From Bacillota bacterium (GTDB lineage Bacteria; Bacillota; Limnochordia; Darwinibacteriales; Darwinibacteriaceae): a stretch of 34,099 bases of DNA. The stretch covers positions 1 through 34,099 of the forward strand of contig DUQE01000008.1 of the NCBI GenBank assembly GCA_012837925.1, read 5' to 3'. Numbering within the stretch: the stretch's first letter is position 1; every line of letters starts with the position of its first letter. Under the pieces are notes generated by a model. The model had not been told where the DNA came from, searched no databases, and was given only the letters and a program-made list of their open reading frames with translations. Below are positions 6,862-15,831 of the stretch, piece by piece. The position numbers and the translations under genes are program-made.

Positions 6862-8253
6862 ATGTCTACATTTGAACAATTAGGACTCAGTCCAGAAACG
6901 TTACGAGCCGTAAATGGGCTTGGTTTCGAAGAGCCGACTCCTATTCAGGAAAAAGCCATCCCCCTAGCTCTGTCTGGTCGCGATGTCATTGGTCAGGCCC
7001 CGACAGGAACCGGAAAGACTGCTGCCTTTGGATTGCCAATGATTGAAACGATCGCTGTGGATAGCGAGCACATCCAGGGGCTTGTTGTGGTTCCCACCCG
7101 CGAATTGGCCATCCAAGTCGCCGAGGAGTTGAACAAGATCGGCGAATTCAAGAGGATTCTGGCCTTACCCATTTACGGTGGACAGGACATGACGCGCCAG
7201 ATCAAGCTACTTAAGAAACATCCGCAAATCGTGGTCGGTACCCCGGGACGATTGATGGATCATATGCGGCGCCGTACAATACGTCTGCAAAACATCTCCA
7301 TTGTGGTTCTGGATGAAGCGGACGAAATGCTCAACATGGGATTTGTCGATGACATCAAGTTCATCTTGGGGGATATCCCCGAGGATCGGCAAACCCTGCT
7401 TTTCTCTGCCTCAATTACAAAGGCGGTTGAGAACATATCGCAGCTTTTCATGCGCGAACCGGCCTTGATTAAAGCCACTCCAAGAAACATCACGGTTCCC
7501 AGTACAGAACAGCACTACATTGAAGTTCCAGAGCGAAAGAAGTTTGATGTGCTCTGTAATCTCCTGGATCTCCATGCGCCGGAGGCGGCCATTGTCTTTG
7601 GACGGACAAAAAAACGAGTCGACGAGCTGAACCAAGCCTTAGCCCGTAGGGGATATTCCGCAGGGGCCATTCATGGGGATCTGAGTCAAAGCCAACGCAA
7701 TGCCGTCATGACACAGTTTCGGGGAGGAACTATCGACATTTTGGTGGCAACGGACGTGGCCGCTAGGGGTCTTGATATCGAAGGGGTGACGCATGTCTAC
7801 AACTTTGATATTCCCCAGGACCCAGAGAGCTACATCCATCGCATTGGGCGCACAGGACGCGCAGGACGCAAAGGAGCCGCTTTCACATTCATAACCCATC
7901 GTGAGCTTGACCACCTGCGCATTATCGAGCGTTTGACGCAGCGGACAATCATACGCCATCCCATTCCAACGCTCACCGACGCACTAGCCGGACAGCAGCA
8001 AGTCACGATAGAACGTATACTCAAAACTGCAGAAGAGCCTGTCCTGTCGGCCTACAAGAGTATGGCAGAAAATCTGCTTGAACACCATGACTCTGTTACA
8101 CTTCTGGCGGCTGCTCTGAAACTTCTCACCAAAGAACCCAATACCGAACCGGTGCAGCTCACCGAGGATACGCCACCCGCTCCGCGGCCGAAAAAGACCC
8201 GCCAACCTGCGCCTAGGCGTCGTCAACATCGCCCACGGAAGCCCAAGAGGTAA
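6862..8253 (+). CDS. DEAD-box ATP-dependent RNA helicase
   Basis: The 463-residue protein has all main helicase motifs: the Q motif at GFEEPTPIQ (21-29), Walker A APTGTGKT (46-53), DEAD at 151-154, and motif [12 protein letters not shown] in the second RecA domain. Motif III reads SAS (182-184) where SAT is usual. The C-terminal tail is Pro-, Arg- and Lys-rich (about the last 30 residues), a typical RNA-binding extension as in CshA/DeaD-type enzymes. It unwinds RNA duplexes in ribosome assembly or mRNA decay. The leader (about 6740-6861) lies divergent to the csp promoter, suggesting shared cold regulation (inference). The ATG has a GAAGAGGAA purine run upstream. Confidence 0.95.
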
Positions 8254-8262
8254 CGCGAGTTG

Positions 8263-8312
8263 TTAAGGGGGCCAGACCCCCTTAAGATTCTCTTAAGATC
8301 TCCTTAACAAAC
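8263..8312. repeat. Variant REP element with CCAGA loop (copy 4)
   Basis: TTAAGGGGG-CCAGA-CCCCCTTAA forms a perfect 9-bp stem (8263-8271 with 8277-8285). After 16 bases comes CCTTAACAA (8302-8310), the complement of the TTGTTAAGG that leads into the stem, giving a second, wider pairing option. The same composite design, with the same 16-base gap, recurs at 17331-17385. It starts 10 bases after the helicase stop codon. Confidence 0.75.
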
Positions 8313-8320
8313 CCTAGGTA

Positions 8321-8349
8321 TTGACACCGTTTTCCAGTGTCAATATAAT
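8321..8349 (+). promoter_or_regulatory. Consensus promoter with internal inverted repeat
   Basis: TTGACA (8321-8326), a 17-base spacer and TATAAT (8344-8349) match the housekeeping-sigma consensus at every position. TTGACAC and GTGTCAA (8321-8327 and 8337-8343) form a 7-9-7 inverted repeat that fills the -35 and spacer, the shape of a repressor operator. Transcription should start near 8356. Confidence 0.85.
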
Positions 8350-8355
8350 ACAAGT

Positions 8356-8556
8356 GAATATGGAAACGAAAGGAGCCTCGACCCTTGAACATTTTCTAAT
8401 CTGTAATCCACGAGACTTTTCCAGAATCAGAAGCAGAAGCTGCAGAAACACAAGCGGCTCTTTTGTCGTGAGTCTCAAGATTTTTCAACAGATTAGGTAG
8501 TGAGTACAAGGGCAGGTTTTGAGCATGACATAGGGGGGATCCCTTATGTTGTTTTG
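8356..8556 (+). ncRNA. Structured non-coding RNA or mRNA leader, possibly 6S-like
   Basis: No long reading frame follows the strong promoter, but the transcript folds into a rod. CCCTTG (about 8382-8387) pairs with CAAGGG, then across an internal loop CTAATCTGT pairs perfectly with ACAGATTAG. GAGACT then pairs with AGTCTC, with a small apical hairpin (AGCTGC with GCGGCT). The rod with internal loops and a length of about 170-200 bases recalls 6S RNA, which mimics an open promoter, but I see no decisive 6S sequence signature. Alternatively it is the leader of the DUF1062 gene, ended by the two terminators that follow. Confidence 0.5.
8528..8556 (+). terminator. First terminator after the non-coding RNA
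   Basis: A 9-bp stem (8528-8536 with 8541-8549, one G-U pair) with loop GGAT is followed by TGTTTTG. The T-run is short, so termination may be partial. Confidence 0.6.
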
Positions 8557-8568
8557 CGTAGCAATCAT

Positions 8569-8614
8569 GGCCACAGAAAGGTACTCTTACCTATCTGTGG
8601 TCTTTTCTATTTTA
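8569..8614 (+). terminator. Second, strong terminator before the DUF1062 gene
   Basis: A 15-bp stem (8569-8583 with 8588-8602; one mismatch and one G-U pair) with loop CTCT is followed by TTTTCTATTTT. It would stop most transcripts from the strong upstream promoter before the DUF1062 gene unless it is regulated. Confidence 0.85.
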
Positions 8615-8636
8615 CTTACGAATCGGAGGCTATTGT

Positions 8637-8759
8637 ATGAGAAGAGTAACCATGATGTACAGTCCCCCATTTTTCAACTTCCTTTTTGCGCAGATAAAAA
8701 GGAAGGAATGTTTATATGGAACAACTGCAGTGGGAGGTGCGCTACCTCGAACCTCCTAA
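8637..8759 (+). CDS. Possible 40-residue leader peptide
   Basis: A short frame starts at ATG 8637 with GGAGG exactly 7 bases upstream (8625-8629) and ends at TAA 8757-8759, overlapping the first 15 codons of the DUF1062 gene in another frame. It begins MRRVTMMYSPPFF and has no known motif. Its ribosomes would pass through the hairpin that covers the DUF1062 ribosome binding site, which suggests translational coupling. The strong initiation site is the only evidence that it is expressed. Confidence 0.35.
   Translation: MRRVTMMYSPPFFNFLFAQIKRKECLYGTTAVGGALPRTS
8678..8707 (+). promoter_or_regulatory. Hairpin sequestering the DUF1062 ribosome binding site
   Basis: CTTCCTTTTT (8678-8687) and AAAAAGGAAG (8696-8705) form a perfect 10-bp stem with an 8-base loop. 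The right arm contains GGAAGGA (8701-8707), the ribosome binding site 8 bases before the ATG at 8716. Folding would block translation of DUF1062. Confidence 0.6.
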
Positions 8760-9273
8760 AATCTTACGGCACTGCAAGAAGTGCGGCAAGAAGACCGAAT
8801 ACGCATCTTCAGGCCTATTTCGAGTAAACGCTCAGCAAAAGTCACTGGACATCTGGCTGATTTACCGATGCACAACATGCAAGTCAACATGGAATCTAAC
8901 GATCTACTCTCGCATCAACCCCAAAAGCATCGAAAGCAGGCTGCTAGACAAATTTTTGGCCAACGACAGTGAACTGGCCACGGAGTATGCCATGAATAGT
9001 GACTTGTTAAAAAGAAATGGGGCTGAGCCCCAGGTGTCTCCCTACCAAATCGTAGGTGATGACCTCGATCTGACGAAAAATGCTGAACTAAAGATAGTCT
9101 GTGAACATCCATCGAGCCTAACAGTGGAGAAAATTCTCCGGGAAAAGCTGCTCCTTACAAGAAGAGAACTTGAAAGCAGAGTTTCCAGCGGCACGATCCG
9201 CCTTGCCGATGGCGGAAACATCCGTAGGGCAAAGCTAAAACAGGAAGTAACCGTACTGTTAGGCACAGGTTAG
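8716..9273 (+). CDS. DUF1062 family zinc-ribbon protein
   Basis: The 185-residue protein matches my memory of the DUF1062 family: an N-terminal zinc ribbon with Cys20-x2-Cys23 and Cys52-x2-Cys55, the phrase FRVNAQQKSLDIWLIYRC between them, and STWNLTI after. The C-terminal half ends in a basic region (RRAKLKQEV) that could contact nucleic acid. The biochemical role of the family is not known to me. It is preceded by an unusually elaborate leader: a consensus promoter, structured RNA, two terminators, a short ORF and a hairpin over the ribosome binding site. It is followed by a REP pair. Confidence 0.8.
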   Translation: MEQLQWEVRYLEPPKILRHCKKCGKKTEYASSGLFRVNAQQKSLDIWLIYRCTTCKSTWNLTIYSRINPKSIESRLLDKFLANDSELATEYAMNSDLLKRNGAEPQVSPYQIVGDDLDLTKNAELKIVCEHPSSLTVEKILREKLLLTRRELESRVSSGTIRLADGGNIRRAKLKQEVTVLLGTG

Positions 9274-9280
9274 CAAAACC

Positions 9281-9330
9281 TTAAGGGGGTCTGTCCCCGT
9301 TAACGATTGTTAACGGGGACAGACCCCCTT
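9281..9330. repeat. Perfect head-to-head REP pair (BIME-like, copy 5)
   Basis: Two 22-bp arms (9283-9304 and 9309-9330) are perfect inverted copies separated by GATT. Each arm is one REP unit: AAGGGGG, loop TCTGT, CCCC and GTTAAC. It lies 8 bases after the DUF1062 stop and may also serve as transcript end. Confidence 0.9.
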
Positions 9331-9450: not shown

Positions 9451-12400
9451 ATGAGAAACAAAGTCCTGGTGTTGAATGCATTGGTTTTGTTGGTTGCGTG
9501 CATCCTATCTCTTGGCTTGGCGCAGGCCTATGACGAATTCTACGGCGAGCCCTACGTTAATCCCTTGGGAAACATGGATGCCTATGACAGCATCGACTAT
9601 CTTGACATTTCCGATCAGTATGACCCATGGTTCGTGGAGTATTACATCTCCGACGAAGACAACCAGACTCTCGAGCTATGGGGTAACGTCTGGATTTTGA
9701 CCGTTCCCTACAACACTCTAGACGATTTGCACGACTACCTCCAAAATCTTGACAGCAACATCCTCTTCCACACAGAAGAAAGACTCATCGCCAAGGTAGA
9801 AGGACCCGGAGAAGTCTGGTGGGTCCACGGGGAATATTGGGGTGACGATTGGTATGATCTCACGCTCGTGCAGGAGAGAAGACCCCTTACCAGAGGCGAT
9901 GAACTCCCGCTCCCCCTCATCAGCCCCTTAGGCGATCCCGCTGAATATTCGTGGTTTGACTATATGCCCAGTGATCGGATTGAAATCGGCTACTTCACCG
10001 CCGAGGGAGAAGCCACTTCCTATTACGGATGGGGCGATACGTGGCGTATGACCATTGAGCCCGATGATTCCTCCGTAGCCATGGACAACCTGGCCCAGTA
10101 CATTCGCGAGCTTGGAGGCGAGGTCAAAGAGCTTTCCTCCTTCATGTTAACGGGCACTGTACTCGATGAAGACAGCTACATGTGGAGTGCCTTCGCCCAA
10201 ATTGAAGAAGATGGAACCTGTTTCCTCACTGTCACCAGGGAGCGCTGGCTCGTTCCGGGACACACCTGGGAGATTCGCCCCGATGAACATGGAGATGTTC
10301 TGGGCTTTGGTTTTTCCTCCGACGGAGAGTTCTTCCACAGCCTAATCGTTGAACTTGAACAAGGCGAAGTAGGGCTTTTCGAAGACATGGTGACAACCAT
10401 GGGAGAGTATCACCGCTCTTGGAGCGAATGGCGGAAGCTGGAGTTCATCAAGACGCCACTTCACATCATTGATCACTTCCCCCAAGAGGCAGGAAAACTA
10501 ACCTGGGTGTTTGACTGGAGCCAGGACCCTAGACCAGAAAAGATTTCCGTTTCCATCGCTAAGAGCGTCCCCCTTCCCAAGGTCACTCTAGGCCGTGAAT
10601 TAGGGATCCTCAAGATAACTGGCGCCAGCATGGGCGAAGTATCCGTGGAAAGCACCTGGAATGTAGGCATAGCCCATCCCGATTTTCAGTATGCGGTTGG
10701 TGACATCAACTCCGATGGAGACCACGTCTTTTACCTTCCTTCTGGCTACTGGAACTTCACGCAGCACGAGGTCGGCTTTGCCCCCATTAAGGGCAACATG
10801 ATCCCAGTCAACGCTGGGCAGATCACGGTCTACTCCGTTCCGAGTATGACCCAAGCCGTATTTGAGGAAATCACCGACAGTTCCGAGATGGGAGAAACCC
10901 TCAATCTAACGAGCGCCACAGTGGGCGGCACGCAAGGCGTAATCGAATTTGCCTTGATAGGGGAAGAAACCAAAAGCCTCGTACCCACGGTAAGTAATGC
11001 CCAGATCACAGAAGGTGGCCTACCTGGTCAAGTCCTGGCCATCGAACCCATTGCCACTCCCCCTTCCATTGTCCTGTTATTAGACTCCTCTGGTTCGATG
11101 CGATCCCAAATGGAGCAAACCATTGTCGCCGCCAAGAGGTTCGTGAACGAGCTGAGCGACGATACATTCATACGCGTCATTGACTTTTCCACCAAGCCCG
11201 AGGTTCTGCCTGGTACAACGAAGCAGGAAGTTCTCGCCAGCCTTGACCAGGTACGCGCCAGTGGTGCAACTGCTCTCTACGACTCTGTACTAGCGGGTCT
11301 GGAACTGCTACAGGAGAAAACCAGGCCGGTTCTCGTCGTGTTCACAGACGGAGTCGATGCAAACTATGACGACACGGGCCCTGGAAGTGTAGCGACTCTT
11401 CCAGAAGTAACGAAGGCGATTGCCGCTAGCGGCGTTCCCCTCTATACCATCGGCTTTGGTTCCGGTCACGATGCGACCGCACTTAAGCAAATGGCCACAA
11501 CTTCAGGGGGCCGTTACTACGCTGCCACCGACCAAAACGCCCTAGAAAAGGTGTTCACAGCTATCAATGATACGCTCAGCAACACCTACCGCTTAGTCTA
11601 CCAACGTCCAACCGAACCAAGCATCTCCAATGTACCGGTCGTATCAATTATGGTTGATACCAGCGGTTCCATGGACGAAAGCCCCGAAGAAGAGGGCTGC
11701 GGCTACCGCATGCAAAAGGTGAAAAATGTATTGCACGAATTCGTTCTCGGGTTACCCGAAAACACTCTGCTTCAAGTGCAAGACTTTAGTTGGGGGACCA
11801 TCATCCAGCAAAGCATGACTATGGATAAGGCTGCTGCTCTGTACGCCATCGGTGCCTTTGAGGCAGCCGGAGCCACGGATACCCTTGGTTCCGTCGAGGT
11901 ATCCTACCAAACCCTGAGTCGTACCCCATCACAGAACAAGGTCTTGATCTACATCACCGACATAGCCATCGCCACGGATGATTCCCGCCTCAACTGGCTG
12001 TTTGAGCTGATTGCCAAATCCGACATCAAACCCGTCTGGATTGGGATCGGGATGGAAGACGATGAGGCGATCTTTGCAGACATCGCCAAAAAGTCCAACG
12101 GAAGACATCTTGTCACCGAAGACCCCAACGATCTAGCCACCTTGTTTGAACAAGTTCTTGCGGAAATTAAGGTGGAAGCCGAGACGAGCTCCTACGTTAC
12201 ACTGCAGCTGTCGATCAAAGAAATGCTAGCGGAAGAAGCACCAAGGACCCATTTTGGTTCCATGAACATGGAGAAAACAAAGCTGGCACAAAGCGACGAT
12301 GTCATAGGGCCCGAAGTTGCCTCTTATTATGCCGCGGGAACAGCAGCCACCGCTGAGGAGTTGCGCCTCTACGGCCTCGAAGGTGAGGCGTTGCACGGGC

Positions 12401-15400
12401 AATCCCTACAGACTCGGTTTGTTTCCCTGGACGCTTCTGCATCAAATACTGCGTTGAGCATGAAAGTCACTGGAGCGACCATAGCCAATTATCTGCAAGG
12501 CTTGAGGGCCCCCAACGGAGCACACTATGTCACCATCGATCTGGAACTGGAGAACATTCTCGAAGCGCAGGAAGTCATCGTGGATACTTCGGGAAACAGC
12601 CATCCAGCTAATTGGATGTCCACCGCGGGAAGTTCCGGTAGAACGGAGTACATGATACCCCAGTACCTGATACCTTCCCTAGCCTCCCACCTTTATGTGG
12701 GTTGGAACAACAGTAGTATGTTCCCTGTCTCTGAAGTCAGCTGGCTGGACCCCGAGGGCCTTCTGGTTCCTGGAGACATGAGTCTAACCGTCCATCCTGG
12801 CGAGCCCATGAAGGGAAGATTGTCCTTTATCGTCACCGACGAGTCTATGACACAGCTCTCACTGCACTTCTTTGATACAGCCTACGGACACTTTAACCTC
12901 GATCTCGTAGGTACTAGCGAGTTCCCGCAACTGGAGCTGACGGGATATCCAGAAGCGGAACCAGCGAAGCTTTCCGACGTGTTCCAACTGAAGATCGTTG
13001 GTGTTGAAGATCGCACGGAGATTGGAAGCAGTGAGGCTAAAGAAGGAAGTGTTTTCCGAGTTGTGGACCTTGAGCTCACGTCCAAGGTGCAGGCTCTGCT
13101 TGATATTGATCCGACCGAAGTCTTTTGGCTGACTCTGTGGACGGATCAAGGGGCGTTCTTCGTTCCCCTGCATGAGCTTACAGCACTCGTTCCCCTAGGA
13201 TTCAGTGAGGGACGTATGGTGGCCCCTGGATCCTATAATCGGGTGCGCTTTGTCTATGAGATACCCGAGGCCCTGGTCCAGCACCGCAGCGAACTCTATG
13301 TGGACCTGCGGGACGATGACGTGATCATTCCCCTCAATGAGGAACCACCGCTAACCACGAGTCTTGAAGGAGACTATGTGGAAGCGGAAGGAGTCAAGCT
13401 CTATATCAACCAGGTGGCTTGGATGGATGGTCCGAACTCGACGTACGACCATCTGGTGGTGGCCGACATCACGTTCGTTGATGAACCGGATGACGTTGGA
13501 ACGAGCATGGACGATGTTCTCACGCTTGTGCGGGACGATTACTCCGGTTCCCGTTCAGAGTTTGACATGAAGAAACTCGTTACCCAAAGTGGATTAGGAG
13601 ACTTTTCCGAGAGCGGCGAAGTGTATTACGAACTGCTTCCCAGCGCGGAGACGGATAAACTGCTTCTAGGCCTTAGCGAAGCGGTGGTTAAGGATGGAAC
13701 ATCGAGACGTGCGCTGGTAGTGTTTGAGATTCCAAAGGATGGCCTCGACCACGGATGGACACTCCAATCTGGTATCTTCCCTGATTTACAGGTGGAACTG
13801 TCTGATGCCTTTTACACCGATCCAGACCTGCTGATGGCTAAAACCGAGTACGTACTTTCAAGTGATGAAGCATTCGAGGAGGAACTCAGTGGGGCGATTG
13901 CCGCTGCCATACGGCGTTATGAAGCTCTGCAGGCTGCACAAGGCAGCGTCAAGGGGAAAGACCGCGTGGATCTGTCGGGAACCGATGATGCGCAAAGGAC
14001 CATCACTCCTCCTCTGGCATCCGCCCCAGGACTCGTGAAGCTTGAAGCGCTGAACTCCCCAGATAAGCTTTGGGCGCTACTCCAAGAGGTCCGTTGGCTT
14101 CCTGGTGATGAGGGGCCTTGGCAACCGATATACGCTCCCGAGGCGGTCCTGACACAAATGTGGGGTACTCCGGCGGATCTGGCCTGCCTAGCTGAAAGTG
14201 TGCTGGAACGTCTTGGCTATAGTCCCGAACGGGCTGTAGTTGAGGTGACCGCAAATGGGCAGGAGTTGCTGCTTCCTGAAGGTCCAGCTCTAGAGATGTT
14301 ACCAGCTGTGAAGTATGAGGAAAATGGACAGGTGCAGCTCGTGGTTCTGCCCTTTGCCAAAGATGTTGCTGAGCTAGAAGACTATGTCTCCATTCCCATC
14401 CGACGGATCTCCATCAGCGAAGAGCTCAAGCAGGCGAGGGTGCAGGTGCATCTCAATGTGGTGGCGAAAGGGGCAGGGTTCGGTGGGCAGTTCGCAGATT
14501 TCGCCTCTGTCCTGTCGGGAGAGGAAGCCGAGGAAGTAGCGGAGCCCCTGACGGTGCTGAGCACAACCCTCTCCTGGGCTGATCTCAGTCTTGACCCCAT
14601 TGACGTCGTTTATGTCTCAGCAGGCTACAATATGGGCGAACTCTTCACTGCGATCATGGAGACTCCCACAGGAAGAGTTGTTGGTCATGAAACAGTGGAT
14701 ACCGGTGAATACGAGATCAAGGGAGCCACAATTGAAGTTGTGATAGACGACGAGGTCTATGTGCACGAGTTTATCCTGCAGAAGGACCAAAGAATTGATC
14801 AGGTAGCACACACGGTGGCGATCAATGCCCCGGATCTTCCTCCTGAATCGGCGGAAGCATTGCAGGCCATGGCTGACACATTGCATGGCAGCACCGATAA
14901 TCCAGACTCGTTGTCTGTCTTGCAGTGGTATACAAGGAGCATTATAAACCAGTTCATAGCCGCCCAAACAGAAAATGAGACGGACTTGGCGGAACAGATG
15001 GATTTAGTTGTGGGACGGACCACCATCCCTCGCATTATCGCTGTGACAGTGAAGAGGAGTCCCAAAGGCGATGGATTGCACACAAGTATTGACTTGGTCA
15101 ATGCCAGCAATCAAGTACATGGAGGCGATCCGGAACTCCAAAATTCCTTCTATATCGCATCTGGAATCATGGCTTCGACCCTGGAATCACAGGTTTTAGG
15201 CCAAGGAACGGGAGTGTTTGAACTCTGGTCACAATTGCCCGAAGACGCAGGGATGCTGTGGATCAACGAGGAAACACTCGATGACGCTTTAGAGATACTG
15301 GAAGAGGCTGGTTTTGACGAAGCGGTTCGCAGGCGAATCGGAAACAGAGAGAGAATCAGAGATAAGGTATTGATGATGCCCCTCGAGCGGGTTATGCTTG

Positions 15401-15831
15401 ATGGAGTACCAAGAACAGCCTGGCTGGAAATCGACGAGGAGACGTTCTTCACCATCGGGGTCCTTGATACCGGAGAACACGGTGCCATGATTGAAAAGGC
15501 CATCATGGAGCTCTATAAATCGTTGGGCAAATACAGTGTGGGAGCTCTAGTCGGTGTTGAAAGCATGCTATGGGGTGTTTCAAGCTATGCCCTGGTCTAC
15601 GATGAATACGAAGACGTCCTCAATGCTGCAGCGGCGCAATCCTACGCACTGGCTGAACAAATCAAGAAGGGTCTGGAACTCCATGCCAAGCTAAGCCCAG
15701 ACTACTTTAAGAGTCTCACCCCACAAGCCATGGCCAAAGGCAAACTGAAGAAGCTATTCCTGCCCGACATCTCCTTTACCAGCGGAATGGCCGCAGGCAT
15801 CGAATACTATCTCCACGTCGCCCGCCAATAG
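9451..15831 (+). CDS. Giant secreted protein with two VWA domains
   Basis: The 2126-residue protein starts with a Sec signal peptide (residues 1-26, ending AQA). Residues about 48-376 hold three related units of about 100 residues, each ending in a similar strand such as LTLVQERRPL or LTVTRERWL. Two tandem von Willebrand A domains follow: about 539-715, with MIDAS DSSGS at 545, SGAT and FTDG; and about 730-910, with DTSGS at 736, AGAT and TDI. Both metal sites look complete, so metal-dependent protein binding at the cell surface or periplasm is likely. The C-terminal 1200 residues are mostly beta-rich, with a segment near 1572-1590 resembling a transglutaminase core without its cysteine. I see no LPXTG, SLH or terminal anchor. 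GGGAGG precedes the ATG. Confidence 0.85.
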   Translation: MRNKVLVLNALVLLVACILSLGLAQAYDEFYGEPYVNPLGNMDAYDSIDYLDISDQYDPWFVEYYISDEDNQTLELWGNVWILTVPYNTLDDLHDYLQNLDSNILFHTEERLIAKVEGPGEVWWVHGEYWGDDWYDLTLVQERRPLTRGDELPLPLISPLGDPAEYSWFDYMPSDRIEIGYFTAEGEATSYYGWGDTWRMTIEPDDSSVAMDNLAQYIRELGGEVKELSSFMLTGTVLDEDSYMWSAFAQIEEDGTCFLTVTRERWLVPGHTWEIRPDEHGDVLGFGFSSDGEFFHSLIVELEQGEVGLFEDMVTTMGEYHRSWSEWRKLEFIKTPLHIIDHFPQEAGKLTWVFDWSQDPRPEKISVSIAKSVPLPKVTLGRELGILKITGASMGEVSVESTWNVGIAHPDFQYAVGDINSDGDHVFYLPSGYWNFTQHEVGFAPIKGNMIPVNAGQITVYSVPSMTQAVFEEITDSSEMGETLNLTSATVGGTQGVIEFALIGEETKSLVPTVSNAQITEGGLPGQVLAIEPIATPPSIVLLLDSSGSMRSQMEQTIVAAKRFVNELSDDTFIRVIDFSTKPEVLPGTTKQEVLASLDQVRASGATALYDSVLAGLELLQEKTRPVLVVFTDGVDANYDDTGPGSVATLPEVTKAIAASGVPLYTIGFGSGHDATALKQMATTSGGRYYAATDQNALEKVFTAINDTLSNTYRLVYQRPTEPSISNVPVVSIMVDTSGSMDESPEEEGCGYRMQKVKNVLHEFVLGLPENTLLQVQDFSWGTIIQQSMTMDKAAALYAIGAFEAAGATDTLGSVEVSYQTLSRTPSQNKVLIYITDIAIATDDSRLNWLFELIAKSDIKPVWIGIGMEDDEAIFADIAKKSNGRHLVTEDPNDLATLFEQVLAEIKVEAETSSYVTLQLSIKEMLAEEAPRTHFGSMNMEKTKLAQSDDVIGPEVASYYAAGTAATAEELRLYGLEGEALHGQSLQTRFVSLDASASNTALSMKVTGATIANYLQGLRAPNGAHYVTIDLELENILEAQEVIVDTSGNSHPANWMSTAGSSGRTEYMIPQYLIPSLASHLYVGWNNSSMFPVSEVSWLDPEGLLVPGDMSLTVHPGEPMKGRLSFIVTDESMTQLSLHFFDTAYGHFNLDLVGTSEFPQLELTGYPEAEPAKLSDVFQLKIVGVEDRTEIGSSEAKEGSVFRVVDLELTSKVQALLDIDPTEVFWLTLWTDQGAFFVPLHELTALVPLGFSEGRMVAPGSYNRVRFVYEIPEALVQHRSELYVDLRDDDVIIPLNEEPPLTTSLEGDYVEAEGVKLYINQVAWMDGPNSTYDHLVVADITFVDEPDDVGTSMDDVLTLVRDDYSGSRSEFDMKKLVTQSGLGDFSESGEVYYELLPSAETDKLLLGLSEAVVKDGTSRRALVVFEIPKDGLDHGWTLQSGIFPDLQVELSDAFYTDPDLLMAKTEYVLSSDEAFEEELSGAIAAAIRRYEALQAAQGSVKGKDRVDLSGTDDAQRTITPPLASAPGLVKLEALNSPDKLWALLQEVRWLPGDEGPWQPIYAPEAVLTQMWGTPADLACLAESVLERLGYSPERAVVEVTANGQELLLPEGPALEMLPAVKYEENGQVQLVVLPFAKDVAELEDYVSIPIRRISISEELKQARVQVHLNVVAKGAGFGGQFADFASVLSGEEAEEVAEPLTVLSTTLSWADLSLDPIDVVYVSAGYNMGELFTAIMETPTGRVVGHETVDTGEYEIKGATIEVVIDDEVYVHEFILQKDQRIDQVAHTVAINAPDLPPESAEALQAMADTLHGSTDNPDSLSVLQWYTRSIINQFIAAQTENETDLAEQMDLVVGRTTIPRIIAVTVKRSPKGDGLHTSIDLVNASNQVHGGDPELQNSFYIASGIMASTLESQVLGQGTGVFELWSQLPEDAGMLWINEETLDDALEILEEAGFDEAVRRRIGNRERIRDKVLMMPLERVMLDGVPRTAWLEIDEETFFTIGVLDTGEHGAMIEKAIMELYKSLGKYSVGALVGVESMLWGVSSYALVYDEYEDVLNAAAAQSYALAEQIKKGLELHAKLSPDYFKSLTPQAMAKGKLKKLFLPDISFTSGMAAGIEYYLHVARQ

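Follow-up and report, generated by a model that had tools for sequence, protein, structure and literature searches.

A putative attenuator with two ribosome-sensing layers in the DUF1062 leader of a Bacillota bacterium

The window analyzed here is a stretch of 34,099 nucleotides from a Bacillota bacterium of the family Darwinibacteriaceae (GCA_012837925.1, contig DUQE01000008.1). At positions 8311–8614, the original prediction had placed a strong promoter followed by a structured, non-coding transcript with two consecutive terminators, and it had offered three identities for this RNA: a 6S-type RNA, a new small RNA, or an attenuating leader of the DUF1062 gene. Which of these is encoded here, and to what signal would it respond? 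Our data suggest that the RNA is probably an attenuator with two layers, both of which sense ribosomes, and that stalled translation induces DUF1062 through it. The promoter region and the regulated gene are located as follows:

8321–8349, forward strand: sigma-70 promoter TTGACA-17-TATAAT, matching the consensus at 12/12 positions
8321–8343, forward strand: inverted repeat TTGACAC-N9-GTGTCAA, exact, overlapping the -35 box
8716–9273, forward strand: DUF1062 gene (PF06353), the regulated gene (Pfam E 2.6e-39, 135.5 bits at a cut-off of 23)

Both the perfect promoter and the inverted repeat named in the original prediction were found as described. Perfect promoters with spacers of 16–18 bases occur 21 times in the 2.24 Mb draft genome, compared to 1 occurrence of a reversed-pattern control; hence the promoter is credible, but not unique. 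Transcription is predicted to start near 8356. The exact inverted repeat is present as a single copy in the genome, and no conserved counterpart was seen in the leader of locus L067 (see below). It represents a possible candidate operator, which, if bound by a repressor, would provide a third level of control for the DUF1062 unit. Long G/C-rich palindromes, TTAAGGGGGCCAGACCCCCTTAA (8263–8285) and GGGGGTCTGTCCCCGTTAACGATTGTTAACGGGGACAGACCCCC (9285–9328), bracket the unit of leader and DUF1062 gene; these might represent terminators, or else a repeated element.

Following the promoter, the first layer of the putative attenuator is composed of these predicted elements:

8368–8375, forward strand: Shine-Dalgarno site GAAAGGAG of uORF1, read from the sequence
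8385–8399, forward strand: uORF1, TTG AAC ATT TTC TAA (M-N-I-F-stop), four codons located within the 5′ arm of the rod
8372–8520, forward strand: rod-like anti-antiterminator (SL-1 equivalent), from the pair list of the minimum-energy fold
8488–8507, forward strand: antiterminator strand ACAGAUUAGGUAGUGAGUAC in the 3′ arm of the rod, able to pair with 8582–8601
8525–8552, forward strand: hairpin 1, which folds and sits at the apex of the antiterminator
8569–8612, forward strand: terminator hairpin with U tail (SL-3 equivalent), consisting of hairpin 8569–8602 followed by TTTTCTATTTT

The rod-like fold, already noticed in the original prediction, is supported by z-scores of -4.2 for 8356–8555 and -5.7 for 8356–8620, with none of 200 dinucleotide shuffles folding as well. 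In the modelled free RNA, the rod at 8372–8520 has a pairing probability of about 1.0. Of the two terminators that had been proposed, the second stands: hairpin 8569–8602 is a good intrinsic terminator. The first does not, because hairpin 1 (8525–8552) has a weak U tail, with a short U run after the full stem; it is probably a pause or apical hairpin and a poor terminator. It is followed by the sequence TTGTTT at 8549–8554 (TTATTT in L067), and both versions fit the NusG pause motif TTNTTT, which is short and U-rich and thus constitutes weak evidence for pausing. Long reading frames are absent, as had been stated; the description as non-coding does not hold, however, given two short open reading frames with Shine-Dalgarno sites. 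Similarly, the element is present at 8311–8614 but does not end there, and continues to the DUF1062 start at 8716.

The start codon of uORF1 lies nine bases past its Shine-Dalgarno site. It is UUG (GUG in L067) instead of AUG, and the frame is so short that a chance origin is possible. The duplex of the antiterminator strand with the terminator (8488–8507 with 8582–8601) has a predicted energy of -26.0 kcal/mol. This value was reached in 0/1000 shuffles of the arm and 2/1000 shuffles of the terminator, and it was equalled by 20 of 8472 background 32-mer windows, which makes the duplex unusual, not unique. In the modelled free RNA the terminator forms with a mean probability of 0.98. Masking the footprint of a ribosome on uORF1, which was modelled crudely as a block of unpaired bases, lowers this value to 0.016–0.04, while the antiterminator increases from 0 to 17–18 pairs and hairpin 1 is retained at its apex. 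The switch between the two folds falls between mask 3′ edges at 8396 and 8402, corresponding to a ribosome position on uORF1. Constrained folding and duplex controls thus describe, in the window, a terminator and an antiterminator that are mutually exclusive, and an anti-antiterminator that contains uORF1.

Comparison with another lineage provides additional data on this arrangement. The closest relative of the DUF1062 protein in our genome collection is encoded in Anaerosphaera multitolerans (L067; 48% identical), where the sequence preceding the gene is laid out like the leader in the window. Alignments were performed segment by segment against dinucleotide shuffles. The stretch from the first Shine-Dalgarno site to the terminator aligns with z 6.9 (0/1000 shuffles), and the stretch of a second leader open reading frame with z 6.6 (0/1000). 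Among the individual elements, the terminator reaches z 5.9 (0/1000), the uORF1 region z 3.5 (3/1000) and hairpin 1 z 2.9; the rod is the weakest part (z 2.2), its body differing in both length and sequence. In L067, GAAAGGGG is aligned to the Shine-Dalgarno site of uORF1, and GTG GTA ACT TTA TAA (2682–2696) to uORF1 itself, with start and stop in aligned positions. By inspection, the antiterminator core displays two compensatory changes (GAGUAC/GUACUC in the window, AAGCAC/GUGCUU in L067). The L067 duplex is weaker (-15.2 kcal/mol; 64–87 of 1000 shuffles do as well, as do 1378 of 10105 background windows), and in the model its antiterminator wins only before the 3′ arm of the terminator is complete. 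A single-sequence covariance model of the window leader identified no further leaders of this type among 39 loci, and it missed L067 as well; the first layer is known from two genomes, those of the window and L067. Taken together, it is well supported in the window and moderately supported by the comparison with L067.

A second layer is located between the terminator and the regulated gene:

8625–8629, forward strand: Shine-Dalgarno site GGAGG of leader ORF 2, aligned in L067
8637–8759, forward strand: leader ORF 2, MRRVTMMYSPPFFNFLF..., start ATG 8637; 40 codons, overlapping the start of DUF1062 in the +1 frame
8678–8705, forward strand: predicted hairpin with an 11-pair stem, sequestering the DUF1062 Shine-Dalgarno site (8700–8707)

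Leader ORF 2 is clearly conserved at the sequence level. When 3532 possible starts in the window were compared to the leader peptide of L117, the start at 8637 and its in-frame inner starts scored best (50), and the next unrelated start scored 29. Compared to L067, L098, L111, L113 and L117, the peptide of leader ORF 2 attains a score reached by 0/5000 shuffles; its similarity to a class of peptides containing CDNPP is not significant. Related leader peptides precede DUF1062 in divergent Clostridia (MRRVTMMYSPPFFNFLF in the window, and MRKIIIDYVPPVITFLF, MKKMLDYIPPFHDFLF and MRKMLDYIPPFHNFLF). Short open reading frames preceded by a Shine-Dalgarno site upstream of other DUF1062 loci encode MKKMLDYIPPFHDFLF, MRKMLDYIPPFHNFLF, MKKILDYIPPFHNFLLV, MKRICDNPPY and MKKVCDNPPVIFPIN, each followed by a stop codon, and a second class of leader peptides before DUF1062 reads M.TP..FA-stop or M...IFNA-stop. 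By a raw, uncontrolled hand count, such short leader frames are found in about 25 of 36 DUF1062 loci. Searches of the leader peptides against plasmids and phages gave no match.

The 5′ arm of the hairpin that would hide the DUF1062 Shine-Dalgarno site coincides with the end of the conserved coding part of the leader peptide (..YxPPFxxFLF). Over 13 loci, this helix has 92.5% of its cells paired and three pairs changed on both sides, while slid versions reach at most 72%; the hairpin register in the window is four bases off the alignment consensus, so the covariation count derives mainly from the other loci. In translation attenuators of the erm type, the coding sequence of a leader peptide overlaps the hairpin hiding the Shine-Dalgarno site of the regulated gene. 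The second layer has the same arrangement, in that a conserved leader peptide overlaps the hairpin hiding the site of the next gene. This layer is far more widespread and better conserved than the first one.

Leader peptides of the second class, with 8 residues and ending in Ala-stop (mostly GCA TAG; one ends in Val), are found before DUF1062 in L096, L097, L099, L100, L112, L122–L124, L126–L129 and L134, and they are accompanied by competing hairpins of the type GCATAGCAAAGGCTATTGC ... AATAGCCTTTGC. A leader peptide MLNPIV[MF]VA-stop, followed by a stem, precedes a gene of the CD3324 family (Mor-like, NCBIfam NF040785) in L091 (about 834–863) and L092 (about 1017–1046). Genes of this family are often located immediately upstream of DUF1062, and the similar peptide MLNPIVMIA stands directly before DUF1062 in L130. 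The CD3324-family gene and DUF1062 may share a translation-stress regulon.

Four computed results, namely the leader homology, the conserved leader peptide, the hairpin at the Shine-Dalgarno site and, for the window, folds that exclude each other, form the basis of the following model, for which we infer that uORF1 is translated and that ribosomes can stall on it. In unstressed cells, ribosomes would clear the four codons of uORF1, the rod would form, and the terminator at 8569–8602 would fold, so that the transcript would stop at about 250 nt. If a translation inhibitor, or some other arrest of early elongation, were to hold a ribosome on uORF1, the footprint of this ribosome would keep the 5′ arm from pairing within the rod. 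Its partner, the 3′ arm (8488–8507), would be released and could then pair with the terminator at 8582–8601, resulting in read-through by RNA polymerase. In the extended mRNA, the Shine-Dalgarno site of DUF1062 would be buried in its hairpin, and a ribosome slowed within the Pro-Pro leader peptide would open this hairpin, such that DUF1062 would be translated. The model suggests that stress on protein synthesis triggers the production of DUF1062. Leader-peptide attenuators are typical of genes answering ribosome-targeting drugs, and the inducing signal is, by analogy, most likely a ribosome-targeting antibiotic.

The class of mechanism is already known. The vmlR leader of Bacillus subtilis combines ribosome-mediated attenuation of transcription and translation; drug-stalled ribosomes on an uORF of 3 codons cause read-through, and a NusG pause motif TTNTTT follows the apical hairpin SL-2 (PMC9226507). 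The leader in the window shares with it the tiny uORF (3 codons in vmlR, 4 in the window) inside an anti-antiterminator, the hairpin at the antiterminator apex followed by TTNTTT, the intrinsic terminator, and the hairpin sequestering a Shine-Dalgarno site; this likeness is one of architecture only, as taken from PMC9226507. On the other hand, vmlR encodes an ABC-F protein whereas the gene regulated in the window is DUF1062, and the window has a second, conserved leader peptide in the sequestering part. The rli80 attenuator of hflXr in Listeria monocytogenes acts on the same principle as that of vmlR (PMC6310831, which also mentions ermC). It likewise places a short ORF, an anti-antiterminator, an antiterminator and a terminator before a resistance gene acting on the ribosome (PMC6310831); its ORF, however, has 14 codons with an RLR motif that is absent from the window, and it precedes a different gene. 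With respect to erm-type attenuators, the YxPPFxxFLF and M.TP..FA-stop peptides are unlike the macrolide (RLR) peptides, and the window and L067 stack the second layer on a transcription attenuator. Compared with the papers searched, what appears to be new is the family under control, the conservation of Pro-Pro leader peptides and the two stacked leader ORFs. The known repertoire is extended by leader-peptide classes with a conserved Pro-Pro motif, as well as by a predicted leader with two separate leader ORFs, in which a switch of transcription is stacked on one of translation.

Several other explanations have to be weighed against this model. The rod could sense a metabolite, an ion, a protein or uncharged tRNA, so that the leader would be a DUF1062 attenuator in which uORF1 is a chance reading frame. 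The length of the rod would suffice for an aptamer, uORF1 has four codons and no AUG, and the first layer comes from two genomes, all of which would be compatible with such a sensor. We nevertheless consider it unlikely: the riboswitch and T-box families of Rfam gave no match for 8250–8750 at E 10; the body of the rod is the least conserved part of the leader, whereas conservation is expected to be highest in the core of an aptamer; uORF1 aligns with L067 at both its start and its stop; and with the second leader peptide, ribosome sensing becomes the common theme of both layers. More generally, a covariance scan with Rfam 15 found no match in the window at the gathering threshold and none for 8250–8750 even at E 10.

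A stand-alone small regulatory RNA, expressed from its own strong promoter and insulated from DUF1062 by two terminators, would be in line with the perfect promoter, the strong fold and the real terminator. There is also a precedent, since the Listeria attenuator rli80 had been described as a small RNA by the time its role at hflXr was recognized (PMC6310831). The terminated leader would still show up as a distinct species of about 250 nt. This reading appears quite improbable, because the region stays with DUF1062 in a different lineage, with homology up to the start codon, and because it harbors mutually exclusive folds. In addition, searches at the DNA level detected no second copy in the genome itself and at most short chance matches in 60 related genomes; phages gave no match to the DNA of the region either, and a phage origin is rejected. 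From the alignment with the L067 leader it follows that the element is a conserved DUF1062 leader and not an independent RNA gene. Together with the attenuator anatomy, this supports the third identity that had been offered originally and makes a new small RNA less likely.

Alternatively, the second layer alone might regulate DUF1062, with the rod and the terminator upstream merely lowering or insulating expression in a constitutive manner. The wider distribution and better conservation of the second layer would fit such a scenario. There is little probability in it, though, in view of the antiterminator complementarity in the window (0–2/1000 shuffles) and the homology of the entire first layer with L067. 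Finally, a 6S-type RNA binding RNA polymerase, which the rod shape, the length and the strong promoter had brought to mind, can practically be dismissed: 8250–8750 does not match RF00013 at E up to 10, the minimum-energy rod has small internal loops alone and lacks the large central bubble, a 6S RNA of this genome is encoded on a different contig (G000:C115, 82.3 bits), and 60 of 61 genomes searched carry one 6S match each.

Returning to the ribosome-sensing attenuator, the function of its target gene is of particular concern, as the papers searched contained nothing on DUF1062 function or on control by its leaders. DUF1062 was found in none of the other searched genomes of the same family, which suggests gain of the gene by transfer; for the same reason, close relatives provide no leader for comparison. 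Leader peptides before most of the DUF1062 genes examined offer a first concrete clue to the function of this uncharacterized family. The protein model is confident (pLDDT 92.6). Its N-terminal zinc ribbon was compared to eL42/L44e and retrieved many L44e chains, but Z is only 3.2–4.2 over 53–59 residues and thus weak; Foldseek gave probabilities of 0.80–0.91 with E above 0.2 for two L44e chains. Two divergent DUF1062 relatives in the same order (L034 and L035) have a clear S4 domain (PF01479; E 3.6e-11 and 5.1e-9) at the corresponding place in the C-terminus. The C-terminus of the window protein alone gave no S4 match by sequence, and the fold search listed no S4 protein. The window protein is composed of a zinc ribbon and, as inferred via these relatives, probably an S4-like C-terminal domain. 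A possible ribosome- or RNA-binding role would fit its regulation. Searches of defence libraries gave no match.

Based on this dataset, we put forward a broader and rather speculative hypothesis, which we hold to be less probable than not. DUF1062 proteins may be ribosome-binding factors (eL42-like zinc ribbon plus S4) induced by translation stress, perhaps serving resistance or rescue. Throughout the Clostridia, new classes of stalling leader peptides specific to the family (YxPPFxxFLF, CDNPPVIFP, M.TP..FA) would control them, and the version found in the window would be a compound one that acts on both transcription and translation.

In L034 (1489–2103) and L035 (1180–1698, reverse strand), the DUF1062-like zinc ribbon is fused to S4 and adjoins a methyltransferase-like gene; these fusions may help to link DUF1062 to a function. 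Directly 3′ of the DUF1062 gene in the window, an open reading frame of 2126 residues with two von Willebrand A domains extends from 9451 to 15831.
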